A stretch of DNA of 64,000 nt from Candidatus Methylomirabilota bacterium (GTDB lineage: Bacteria; Methylomirabilota; Methylomirabilia; Methylomirabilales; Methylomirabilaceae): positions 248,001 to 312,000 of the forward strand of contig PQAM01000008.1 of assembly GCA_003104975.1 (NCBI GenBank), in the 5' to 3' direction. The translations under genes were made by a program, and so were the position numbers. Numbering within the stretch: the stretch's first letter is position 1; each line of letters begins with the position of its first letter. Below the pieces are notes generated by a model. That model did not search any database and was not told where the DNA came from. It saw only the letters and a list, made by a program, of their open reading frames with translations. Below, piece after piece: positions 29,839 to 34,941 of this stretch.

Positions 29839-29867
29839 TTGACTGGATCCCCTGCCTGGTATATACT
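29839..29867 (+). promoter_or_regulatory. Promoter of the csoR-copA operon
   Basis: TTGACT (29839-29844), 17-nt spacer, TATACT (29862-29867): a near-consensus sigma-70 promoter. It is followed at once by a palindrome suited to CsoR. Confidence 0.82.
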
Positions 29868-29879
29868 CTACCAGGGTAG
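29868..29879. promoter_or_regulatory. Candidate CsoR operator
   Basis: CTACCAGGGTAG, an imperfect palindrome immediately after the -10 box, with a second GGGTAG half at 29878-29883. Known CsoR sites are GC-rich palindromes with TACCC/GGGTA halves that overlap the promoter, which this resembles. Not proven. Confidence 0.55.
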
Positions 29880-29916
29880 GGTAGTGATAGTCGACGGCCG
29901 TGTTGGGGGTGAGATG

Positions 29917-30192
29917 ATGGACGAGGAGACGAGGCAAAAGGCGCTGGCTCGGCTGAGTCGGATCGAGGGGCAGGTGCAGGGTGTGCAGCGGATGGTGGAG
30001 GAGGAGAAGTACTGCGTCGATATCCTGCTCCAGCTCTCCGCTATCCAGGGCGCATTGGAGCAGGTTCGCAAGATCCTGCTCGGCCGTCACATCGAATCGT
30101 GCGTCGTCGAGGCGATGGCCTCCGGGCGGGCGGAGGATCGCCAGAAGAAGATTGAGGAGCTTCTGGATGTCTTCACCCGCTACGGTAAGTAG
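29917..30192 (+). CDS. csoR: CsoR-type copper-sensing repressor
   Basis: A 91-residue all-helical repressor of the CsoR/RcnR family. The Cu(I) ligand set is intact: Cys33 (EKYCVDIL), His58 and Cys62 (GRHIESCVVEA), with the exact C-x24-H-x3-C spacing of CsoR, separating it from RcnR and FrmR. RLSRIEGQVQGVQRMVEEE is the N-terminal family motif. Tandem ATGs at 29914/29917 follow a GGGGGTGAG site. It heads the operon with an FAD reductase and CopA; copper binding should release it from the operator at 29868-29879. Confidence 0.92.
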   Translation: MDEETRQKALARLSRIEGQVQGVQRMVEEEKYCVDILLQLSAIQGALEQVRKILLGRHIESCVVEAMASGRAEDRQKKIEELLDVFTRYGK

Positions 30193-30201
30193 GTCAGGTC
30201 C

Positions 30202-31398
30202 GTGATGCGGTACGATGCGATTGTGGTGGGCGGCGGGCCTGCCGGGGCGACGGCGGCGCTTACCCTGGCCAAGGGCGGCGCCCGGGTGCTGTTGCTGGAG
30301 CGGCGGCGGTTGCCTCGTTACAAGCCGTGCGGCGGCTGCCTGTCGCGACGGGTGGAGCGGTGGCTTCCGTTCGATCCGAGTGTGCTGATAGAGGAGCGGA
30401 TCACCGGACTCACCTTTACCTGGCGCGGTCGTGATGCGGTGGAGGCGACCTTCTCGGAGCCGGTGGCCCTCATGATCTGGCGCAACATGTTTGATCAGGC
30501 GCTGTGCGGACGCGCGGTTGACGCCGGAGCCGAGTTGCAGGATGGACAGACCATCCGATCCGCCAGGACATCTGCAAACCATGTCGAGGTCGAGATTGCG
30601 GGCAGGACGGTCACCGCCGATTTCCTGGTCGGGGCCGATGGGGCCTACAGTGTCGTGGCCCGGGATCTCTTTCCGGATCGCGGACAGCCGGGTCTGGCGG
30701 CGCTGGATGTGGAGCTCCCCTTGACGAGGACGGGAGAGGCGAAGCTGAAGGGTCGGGTGGTACTGGATGTGGGGCACGCGCCGGGAGGGTACGGCTGGGC
30801 CTTTCCGAAAGGCGGCGTGGCCTCGGTCGGTGTGGCGGTCGATCGCAGATCGGCGAAACGGGTCCAGTCGTGCCTGACGGCCTTTCTGAACTCGACCGGC
30901 TTCCAGGATCGCAGCGCCATACGGACCACCGGGGCGTTGATTCCGATTCATGGCAACGGGGTCCGCTCGCTTCACCGAGGGCGCGCCCTTCTTGTAGGTG
31001 ATGCGGCCCGCCTGGTCGATCCCTTTCTTGGGGAGGGGATCTATTACGCCATTCAGAGCGGACAACAGGCGGCGCGGACGATCCTGACCGACGGAAGCCG
31101 CAACGGCGACCTATCGTCATATCAGACCGCCGTCTCGCGGACGATCATCCCGGAGCTCGAGGCGGCCGATCGGCTCAGCCGTGCGGCCCATCGGGCCCCG
31201 TGGCTCTGGTTTCAGGTCCTCAAGCGGCGTCGTTCGGTGATCGATCTGTACCGAAAGGTCTTGATGGGTGACGCAGGCTACCGATGGTTTGAAGATCAGG
31301 TCTGGGCGGGGACGCCTCGTCCTATAGTTTGGCTGTATGGCCTTTGGGCCGGGCGAGGGGCCCTTCGCGATAGACCTCAGGGTTTGGGGAGCCGGTAA
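30202..31398 (+). CDS. Geranylgeranyl-reductase-family FAD oxidoreductase
   Basis: A 398-residue flavoprotein. The N-terminal dinucleotide fold is [20 protein letters not shown] (about residues 4-23), followed by [14 protein letters not shown], a conserved geranylgeranyl-reductase PCGG-type motif, and [20 protein letters not shown] with the second FAD motif, then [12 protein letters not shown]. This family saturates isoprenoid chains of quinones, archaeal-type lipids or chlorophyll side chains. It begins 9 nt after csoR and its stop touches copA, so it is copper-regulated by position, which is unusual. GTG at 30202 or ATG at 30205 are both possible starts. Confidence 0.9.
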
Positions 31399-34115
31399 TG
31401 GCAACAGATCCGATTTGCGGCATGGATGTACTCCCCGAAGAGGCTGCAGGCACAAGCCGCTATCAAGGCGTGGACTATTACTTCTGTGCGGTGGCCTGCA
31501 AAGAGGCGTTCGACAGGTCGCCGGAACAGTATGTGCCTAAATCCCCCCACCCCCCCTTTACCAAAGGGGGGCACGGGGGGATTTCAGGTGCGAAGCCTGA
31601 AGCTCAAGCTGCCAGTGTCGAAGCCTCCCGCCTCCCGCCTCCCGCCTCCCGCGCTCTTCATACCGTCGCGCTCCCCATCGGGGGCATGACCTGTGCCTCA
31701 TGTGTGGCCAGGATCGAGGACGGCCTGTCGCGGCTCGACGGGGTCGAGGCGGCCAGTGTCAATTTTGCAACGCAACAGGCGACGATCTCGTACGATCCCA
31801 CGCAGGCCACCATCGATCGACTTGTCCGGGAGGTTCGAGAGCTCGGCTATGAAGTACCGGTCGCCGACGTTGTCTTCCCGATCCGTGGGATGTCCTGCGC
31901 CTCATGCGTTCAGCACATCGAGCAGGCGTTATCGTCAGTCCCGGGGGTGGTCTCCGCCTCCGTCAACTTTGCGACGGATCGGGCGACCGTGACCTACCTT
32001 GCCCCGATCGTTCAACCGTCCGATCTGCGGAAGGCGATTGAAGATGCTGGGTATCAGGTTGCGGACGTAACTACTGCCGCCGCAGCGCCCGATCAGGAGA
32101 AGGCGACGGCAGATGCAGAGATCCGTCTACTTCGAACCAAGTTTGTGGCGGGCGCGGCCCTGAGCCTTCCTGTCCTGTTCGGGAGCTTTCCGGCCTGGTT
32201 CCCATGGGCTCCGGCGCCGCTCTCCGACCCCTACGTCCTCCTGGTCCTGACCACCCCGGTGCAGTTCTGGGTCGGCCGGCAGTTTCATCGGGGGTTCTGG
32301 GCGAGCCTGAGACACCGAACCGCCGACATGAACACCCTGGTCTCGATCGGGACAAATGCGGCCTATCTCTACAGTGCGGCACTTACCCTCTTCCCGGCGT
32401 CCATCGCGCCGGCGGGGATGGAGACGATGACCTACTACGACACCGCCGCCATCCTGATGACCCTGATCGTCATGGGGCGGTGGCTGGAGGCCAAGGCCAA
32501 GGGCCGCACCTCCGAGGCGATCAAGAAGTTGATGGGACTGCGAGCCAAGACCGCTCGGGTGATCCGCGGCGACGTCATGCAAGACATCCCCGTGGAAGAG
32601 GTCCGGGTCGGTGACCTGGTGTTGGTGAGGCCGGGTGAGAAGGTCCCGGTGGACGGGATCATCCGCGAGGGGCAGTCGGCGCTGGATGAGTCGATGCTGA
32701 CCGGAGAGAGCCTTCCCGTCGAGAAGGGGCCGAGCGATCAGGTGATCGGCGCGACGGTCAATAAGATGGGAAGCTTCACGTTCGAGGCGACGCGGGTCGG
32801 ACGGGAGACGGTCCTCGCCCAGATCGTCCGACTGGTGGAGCAGGCCCAGGGATCGAAGGCGCCGATCCAGCGACTGGTCGATAGGATTGCCGGCGTCTTT
32901 GTCCCGATCGTCCTGGTGATCGCGGTGATGACCTTTGGGATCTGGTGGTTGGTCGGGGGGGAGCAGGCGTTTCTTGTAGCCCTCTCGAACTTCGTCGCCG
33001 TCCTGGTGATCGCCTGCCCCTGCGCCCTGGGTCTGGCGACGCCCACCTCGATTATGGTCGGTATCGGCAAGGGGGCCGAGCATGGTGTCCTGATCAAGAA
33101 CGCCGAGAGCCTCGAACGGGCCTATCAGGTGGGCGCCATTATTTTCGACAAGACCGGCACGCTGACCGTCGGCCAACCGGTCGTCACCGACGTTGTTCCG
33201 AGTGTTCCCCTCACGCCTCACGCCTCACGCGAACTCGTTCGCTTGGCCGCCTCAGCGGAACTGGGTTCCGAGCACCCGCTCGGCCAGGCGATTATTGAGC
33301 ACGCCAGGGCGCAGGGGCTCGATCTTGCCCAGCCGCAGGAGTTTAAGGCCGCTCCAGGACATGGCATCAGGGCGGTGGTAGAGGGACAGGAGGTTCTTCT
33401 CGGCAACGCGGCTTTGATGCGGCAGCACCGGATCGACCTTGCCGGGATGGACGTCCAGGCGCAGGCGCTCTCGGGCGCAGGTAAGACGCCGATGTTCGTG
33501 GCCGCCGATGGTCGGTTTCTCGGCATCATCGCCGTAGCCGACGTCGTCAAGCCGCATTCCAAGGCAGCCGTGGCGGCGCTACATGATTTGGGTATCGAGG
33601 TGGTGATGATGACCGGTGATACCCGTCGGACCGCACAGGCCATCGCCGGGCAGGTGGGGATCGATCGCGTCCTGGCCGAGGTCCTCCCCGAACACAAGGC
33701 GCTCCAGGTCCGTCAGCTCCAGGAGCAGGGGAAGCTGGTCGCGATGGTGGGCGACGGGATCAACGATGCCCCAGCCCTGGCCCAGGCCGATGTCGGAATC
33801 GCCATCGGAACCGGGACCGATGTGGCGATGGAGGCGGCCGATATCACCCTGATCGGTGGCGACCTGCGCAGCGTTGTGACGGCCCTCCAGTTAAGCAGGC
33901 TGACGATGCGCAATATCAGGCAGAACCTGTTTTGGGCGTTTGCCTACAATGTGATCCTGATCCCGGTGGCCGCCGGTGTCCTATACCCGTTGTTCGGGGT
34001 AATGTTGAGTCCGGTCCTGGCCGGTGGCGCCATGGCGCTGTCGTCGGTGACGGTGGTCAGCAATGCCCTCCGGTTACGGCGATTCCGGCCGATGGACGTA
34101 GCCGCATCCGCATAG
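31398..34115 (+). CDS. copA: Cu(I)-exporting P-type ATPase CopA with N-terminal YHS domain and two HMA domains
   Basis: A 905-residue inner-membrane pump. Order: YHS domain (residues 1-46; Cys7, Cys30, Cys34), a low-complexity linker (48-88), HMA1 with GGMTCASC (Cys99, Cys102), HMA2 with RGMSCASC (Cys167, Cys170), then helices, the actuator TGES, the transmembrane copper site CPC (540-542) and phosphorylation site DKTGTLT with Asp584. Everything needed for activity is present. The linker is encoded by an in-frame palindromic repeat plus a heptanucleotide array, and the nucleotide-binding domain holds a second heptamer insertion ([12 protein letters not shown]). The start codon overlaps the stop of the reductase gene. 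Confidence 0.96.
31539..31584. repeat. Palindromic repeat inside the copA coding sequence
   Basis: AAATCCCCCC and GGGGGGATTT arms flank CTTTACCAAAG-type sequence; in frame it encodes [14 protein letters not shown]. It resembles intergenic palindromes found in many bacterial genomes, here read through as the linker between YHS and HMA1. Confidence 0.75.
31624..31651 (+). repeat. Tandem heptamer CCTCCCG (four copies) in copA
   Basis: Four exact CCTCCCG units in the coding sequence of the YHS-HMA1 linker, encoding SRLPPPAS. Period 7, like the intergenic AGGGTRT arrays. Confidence 0.85.
33210..33230 (+). repeat. Tandem heptamer CTCACGC (three copies) in copA
   Basis: Three exact CTCACGC units (21 nt, frame-neutral) inside the nucleotide-binding domain, encoding LTPHAS and neighbours shortly after the phosphorylation site. 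Confidence 0.85.
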
Positions 34116-34192
34116 CGGCTTACCGGTGTGATACAATAGCAGCCGGTATTCTGTGTCAGAAATTCGATGAAAAGGTCGACACCCTCTGAGTC

Positions 34193-34279
34193 GTCATTCC
34201 TGCGAAAGCAGGAATCCAGAACCTACGTTCTTTCCTGGATTCCGACTCGTGCCCGCGACGCGAGCTTGGCCGGAATGAC
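34193..34279. repeat. Intergenic palindromic repeat (GTCATTCC...GGAATGAC type)
   Basis: Outer arms GTCATTCC and GGAATGAC enclose an inner inverted repeat (CCTGCGAAAGCAGG) and further complementary segments (GGAATCCAG with CTGGATTCC). This form occurs as a dispersed repeat in many bacterial chromosomes. It lies between copA and the CYCXC gene and probably folds as an mRNA hairpin. Confidence 0.75.
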
Positions 34280-34356
34280 GTCCAGAAAGCTGCAACGAAT
34301 GTCGAGTACACGATTTTGGTTCGGGTTGATTGGTAAGAAGGGAGGTGAACGCGTAT

Positions 34357-34782
34357 ATGGAACAAGATCCAATGAAGCAATCCGATAGGCGATGGGCGTT
34401 AAAGATCATTGGCGGAGGTCTGGTGGGCCTCCTCGTCGGGCTGGCGACCGGTGGACTTGCTGTGGCAGGTGGGGATGGCAGCCTGCCGGGGATCCCCAGG
34501 CGTCCTCGCCCGGCGACACCTTCGCCCGCGCTGTTCAGTGGCAAGCTGGCTGAGACTTATCGGATCGCCAGGGAGGTACCGGAGCTGATCGAGCAGATGC
34601 CGTGCTATTGTGGCTGCTACGGGATGGCGGACCACCGGAACAACCTCGACTGTTACGCGGATCGGCATGCGGACACGTGAAGGATGTGCCAAGACATTAC
34701 GCTGGATGCGTATGCCATGTACAAGCAGGGGAAGAAGGTTCCAGAGATCAAGGCGGCAATCGATCGAAAGTATGCGCGATAA
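34357..34782 (+). CDS. CYCXC-family protein with in-frame TGA, probable selenoprotein
   Basis: Read through the TGA at 34678-34680, this is 141 residues with Sec as residue 108. The N-terminus has a Tat-like motif (SDRRWALKIIGGG) and a membrane segment, then PCYCGC (Cys83, 85, 87), HRNNLDCY, and HADT-U-RMC followed by QDITLDAYAMYKQGKKVPEI and KAAIDRKYAR. Cys-containing relatives I know (PCYCGC family) carry CxxC at this spot and the same C-terminal pattern of EIRxxIDxKY, so U replaces the first Cys. A SECIS-like hairpin lies at 34695-34714. AGGGAGGTGA precedes the ATG at 34357. Probably an exported, thiol-based metal or redox protein of the copper operon. If Sec is not inserted, a 107-residue truncated form results. 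Confidence 0.82.
34695..34714 (+). promoter_or_regulatory. Candidate bacterial SECIS element
   Basis: Hairpin CAU(U)ACGC - UGGAU - GCGUAUG: seven base pairs with one bulged U four pairs below the loop, and two G in a five-base loop. It starts 14 nt after the TGA, so loop and bulge sit at about the distance and arrangement of the E. coli fdhF SECIS (bulged U, four pairs, G-rich loop). Folded by eye, not by program. Confidence 0.65.
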
Positions 34783-34794
34783 AAGGAGAGAGCG

Positions 34795-34941
34795 ATGGCT
34801 ATCGATCCCGTGTGCAAGATGACGGTGAATGAGAAGCAGGCGGCGGCGACCGCCGTCCATCAAGGGGTGACCTACTATTTCTGTGCCGTGGGCTGCAAGC
34901 GCGCCTTCGAACAGTCGCCGGAGAAATATCTTTCGAAATAG
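34795..34941 (+). CDS. Small stand-alone YHS-domain protein
   Basis: A 48-residue protein: MAIDPVCKMTVNEKQAAATA at the start, then YYFCAVGCKRAFEQSPEKYL. The Cys7, Cys30 and Cys34 pattern is the same as in the YHS domain of CopA (about 50% identical by eye). AAAAGGAGAG precedes the ATG by 6 nt. Likely a copper or metal carrier in the same operon as CopA and the CYCXC protein. Confidence 0.88.
   Translation: MAIDPVCKMTVNEKQAAATAVHQGVTYYFCAVGCKRAFEQSPEKYLSK

Follow-up and report, generated by a model that had tools for sequence, protein, structure and literature searches.

Organisation of the locus

The window (the whole 64,000-nucleotide stretch of Candidatus Methylomirabilota DNA that was analysed) contains a copper operon in which the gene following copA is predicted to encode a selenoprotein of the CYCXC family. 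The features of the operon are given below by window position and strand, with the evidence for each in brackets.

29914–30192, plus strand: putative CsoR-type metal-sensing repressor (translation; conserved beside copA in relatives and bacilli)
30202–31398, plus strand: geranylgeranyl-reductase-like FAD oxidoreductase (TIGR02032, 237 bits; conserved in the operon)
31398–34115, plus strand: copper P-type ATPase CopA, with an N-terminal YHS domain and two HMA domains (profile searches)
34338–34348, plus strand: Shine-Dalgarno-like GGGAGGTGA / AAGGGAGGTGA, just 5′ of ATG 34357 (sequence)
34357–34782, plus strand: predicted CYCXC family selenoprotein gene, 141 residues with Sec as residue 108, TAA stop included (NF041379, PF13798)
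34381–34431, plus strand: DRRxxL(K/R) and hydrophobic stretch, a probable Tat signal or membrane anchor (N-termini compared by sequence)
34678–34680, plus strand: in-frame TGA, predicted to be read as Sec, the U of UxxC (TGA kept in relatives, Cys in others)
34698–34712, plus strand: bSECIS-like hairpin, stem TACGC/GCGTA, loop TGGAT (folding, Cys-homologue control, compensatory changes)
34795–34941, plus strand: small YHS-domain protein, 48 aa (PF04945, 50.9 bits; directly 3′ in relatives too)

The YHS domain thus occurs twice in the operon, at the N-terminus of CopA (31398–31541) and as the free-standing protein, and relatives carry the same pair, 55–60% alike. Just 5′ of csoR (29860–29900), TACTCTACCAGGGTAGGGTAGTGATAG looks by eye like a G-tract palindromic CsoR operator. 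Within the operon, copA is parted from the CYCXC gene by a dispersed repeat of ~125 bases (34165–34290), which has no fewer than 39 further full or partial copies in the genome, mostly 76–92% identical.

An interrupted reading frame of the CYCXC family

From ATG 34357 to TAA 34780–34782, sequence and translation show a single frame with TGA 34678–34680 as its sole interruption. The frame runs on 3′ of the TGA as RMCQDITLDAYAMYKQGKKVPEIKAAIDRKYAR until the TAA is reached, and a ribosome site (AAGGAGAG) and the YHS gene follow. When read through, the protein scored 119.6 bits against NF041379, the NCBIfam model "CYCXC family (seleno)protein" (curated cut-off 90 bits), covering profile positions 2–89 of 90, and 53.6 bits against PF13798 (PCYCGC; cut-off 25). 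The NF041379 model had no match in any of 14 control genomes. The protein has five conserved Cys and one predicted Sec, and an alignment of homologues showed CYCxC, a single C and U/CxxC as invariant columns in register, with the TGA codon as the first residue of the UxxC motif. Chance is excluded as the source of this pattern, because the similarity runs past the TGA in the relatives fetched and Cys lies exactly at the TGA column of the Cys-containing homologues. The original prediction of a TGA-broken frame with PCYCGC/CYCXC similarity, in which the family's CxxC starts at the TGA and the frame stays open to the TAA ahead of a ribosome site and the next gene, was therefore borne out.

Conservation of the TGA in relatives

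A homologue scan with one genome per species yielded 47 loci, the nearest of which belonged to Candidatus Methylomirabilis and Methylomirabilota MAGs. Within the phylum of the window, 70 of 95 genomes had family matches. These numbered 83 in all, and 82 contained an in-frame TGA, the codon position being checked in 30 fetched loci and the remaining phylum matches being judged by stop count alone. The lone match lacking a TGA was a fragment (profile positions 31–56) that ends before the Sec column. We observed the TGA at the same column in Methylomirabilota, Deltaproteobacteria, Tectomicrobia, one Acidobacteria MAG and most of the Bacillaceae fetched, and a TGC or TGT there in Nitrospinota, one Anaerolineaceae MAG and two bacilli.

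These data bear on the possibility that translation simply ends at the TGA, or that the codon results from a pseudogene or assembly error, with the downstream homology a mere remnant. Of the 46 non-overlapping long ORFs in the window, 21 end in TGA, more than in any other stop codon, and such a use at 34678 would fit that habit. However, both the TGA and the frame beyond it recur in independent genomes throughout the phylum, and also in Deltaproteobacteria, Tectomicrobia, Acidobacteria and Bacillaceae, which refutes an ordinary stop; we consider this explanation extremely improbable.

A hairpin downstream of the TGA

Counted from the U of the UGA, the stem of the predicted hairpin begins 20 nt further on; it has five pairs, more in some relatives. 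All five pairs are kept throughout 21 distinct sequences (105 of 105 cells paired), and two of the five show compensatory variation: the pair at the base of the stem occurs as U-A, G-C and C-G, and the adjoining pair as A-U, G-U, G-C and U-A. The covariation score was 0.378, compared with 0.141 in shuffles (0 of 500 as high), figures whose force as proof on their own is limited by the kinship of the sequences and by coding constraint. Sliding the hairpin by +2 gave a covariation of 0.323, yet only 76% of cells were then paired. Cys homologues were without such a hairpin (mean −3.8 kcal/mol vs. −10.2 and −6.7 kcal/mol). Among synonymous recodings of the window sequence, 7% were as stable as the hairpin, which by energy alone is only moderately unusual; 2.9% formed the full five-pair stem. 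In bacilli, another hairpin (TAGCC-CGTGA-GGCTA) occupies almost the same position. Searches of Rfam around the TGA (E ≤ 1) returned no match to the hairpin, and Rfam SECIS_1 had no match in the genome, nor in any of the 14 control genomes, so that its silence carries no weight. Covariation at the place expected downstream of a UGA supports the view that this is a bSECIS-like element.

Selenocysteine machinery and proposed decoding of the UGA

Profile searches of the genome carrying the window (3.0 Mb, 99.99% complete) identified selA (591 bits), selD (412 bits) and selB (380 bits). The last of these shares the contig of the window and lies 11.6 kb outside it. A tRNA-Sec with anticodon TCA (UCA in the tRNA) was found at 65.2 bits and was called by ARAGORN too. 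Two further tRNA-Sec matches above the cut-off were set aside: one is a Ser tRNA and the other was not called as a tRNA by ARAGORN. The selD reading frame also contains a TGA, at the codon for the catalytic residue (GAGUACK site; L018, 1531–1533), so SelD itself is likely a selenoprotein; GAGUACK is the known Sec form of the enzyme. No clear second selenoprotein emerged from a scan of the window for TGA read-through frames, the candidates mostly overlapping other ORFs.

We also considered decoding of the TGA as another amino acid, by global or partial reassignment (e.g., to Trp or Gly) or by near-cognate read-through. The frame is open whatever sense reading the TGA is given, and to that extent such decoding would fit. 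On the other hand, the many genes of the window that stop at TGA indicate that the codon is not globally reassigned, homologues without a TGA have Cys at the aligned residue, and the genome encodes the full Sec machinery with a tRNA-Sec(UCA). The chance that another amino acid is inserted therefore appears minute.

Selenocysteine at the first position of UxxC is supported by this machinery, the conservation of the TGA in the phylum and in Firmicutes, the covarying hairpin and the Cys homologues. We propose that SelB and Sec-tRNA(UCA) would decode UGA 34678, with insertion guided by the hairpin at 34698–34712, and that the product would be a member of the CYCXC (OS_HP4, PCYCGC) selenoprotein family. 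Judged from sequence comparison, this decoding is strongly supported, and we regard it as almost certain. The original prediction that Sec takes the place of the first Cys of the CxxC thus gains support: selA, selB, selD and tRNA-Sec are all present, Cys falls at the TGA column of aligned homologues, and relatives keep the TGA with a conserved downstream frame rather than a plain stop.

Copper neighbourhood and predicted role

With CopA, csoR and YHS genes around the CYCXC gene, the copper-operon context first proposed was right. The order csoR, oxidoreductase, copA, CYCXC, YHS is kept in the relatives with long enough contigs (four loci). Outside the phylum, the family adjoins csoR-copA-copZ in two bacilli, an HMA protein at three Alkalibacillus loci, a multicopper oxidase at two loci (L030, L045) and SCO1 at four (L027, L030, L031, L061). 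The neighbour in many bacilli is a P-type ATPase only about 32–35% identical to CopA and probably of the Zn/Cd type, and at a sizeable minority of related loci no metal gene was seen in the available flanks.

All full-length members examined have a hydrophobic N-terminal stretch; the N-termini carry DRRxxL(K/R), Tat-like by eye, in Methylomirabilis members and a lipobox in bacilli. The structural model (mean pLDDT 78) consists entirely of helices, and confidence in it is good from about residue 50 onwards. A fold search of the PDB with this model found no similar solved structure (best E = 1.0), and the single weak match in a PDB sequence search (Saposin-A, E = 0.061) was taken as chance.

Given the gene context and the hydrophobic stretch, the product is likely a putative exported copper- or thiol-handling protein. 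It would be exported or membrane-anchored via its N-terminal signal and would bind or redox-handle copper or thiols outside the cytoplasm, partnering CopA and the YHS protein; neighbouring genes in several phyla make this the most likely predicted role. More tentatively, the family may be a dedicated extracytoplasmic copper-handling selenoprotein of several phyla, with Sec as a Cu(I) ligand or redox centre beside CopA, SCO1, CopZ or multicopper oxidase. It is also conceivable, and we hold this with similar reserve, that the selenoprotein performs general thiol/oxidoreductase chemistry, in periplasmic disulfide or cytochrome-oxidase assembly, and that copper genes lie close by only through shared extracytoplasmic stress. 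UxxC does resemble redox-active motifs, and thioredoxin-like and SCO1 genes adjoin the family in Deltaproteobacteria and Tectomicrobia; but CopA, CsoR, CopZ or a multicopper oxidase is repeatedly encoded beside the family in separate lineages, and the CYCxC cluster suits metal binding.

The literature searched contained no paper assigning the CYCXC family a role, and a study of the Parageobacillus lipoproteome described the function of the PCYCGC member there as unknown. In reviews, the family appears as "CYCXC family protein (hypothetical protein OS_HP4)" with the motif UxxC (PMC13188914, PMC9312934), which, with the "(seleno)protein" of the NCBIfam name, agrees with the earlier statement that CYCXC proteins include selenocysteine forms. 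These reviews trace OS_HP4 (UxxC) to an Olavius algarvensis symbiont study of 2007, and one of the two mentions a Methylomirabilota MAG for which 63 selenoproteins were predicted. Of the "new selenoprotein" originally announced, the selenoprotein therefore stands but the novelty does not at family level: CYCXC / OS_HP4 is already described, with its own NCBIfam model, and the gene here adds a member. Gene callers that take the TGA as a stop would cut the protein short before UxxC, and the family is thus easily mis-annotated. The recurring copper neighbourhood gives this selenoprotein family a role that can be tested.

Comparison with known systems

Like the E. coli fdhF-type bSECIS, the hairpin is short, lies soon after the UGA and has G residues in its apical loop, and the two may also share a bulged U beneath the upper stem; the fdhF-type sequence is unlike that of the present hairpin, which is without an Rfam match. 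Compared with the NF041379 (OS_HP4) family, the protein has a near full-length profile match, the UxxC and the PCYCGC motif in common and is not different in kind; its gene belongs to a csoR-copA-YHS operon in Methylomirabilota. Bacillaceae PCYCGC lipoproteins (PF13798) have the same Cys pattern, and most of those fetched also have TGA at UxxC, but they carry a lipobox N-terminus in place of the DRRxxL signal found here, and an insertion before UxxC.
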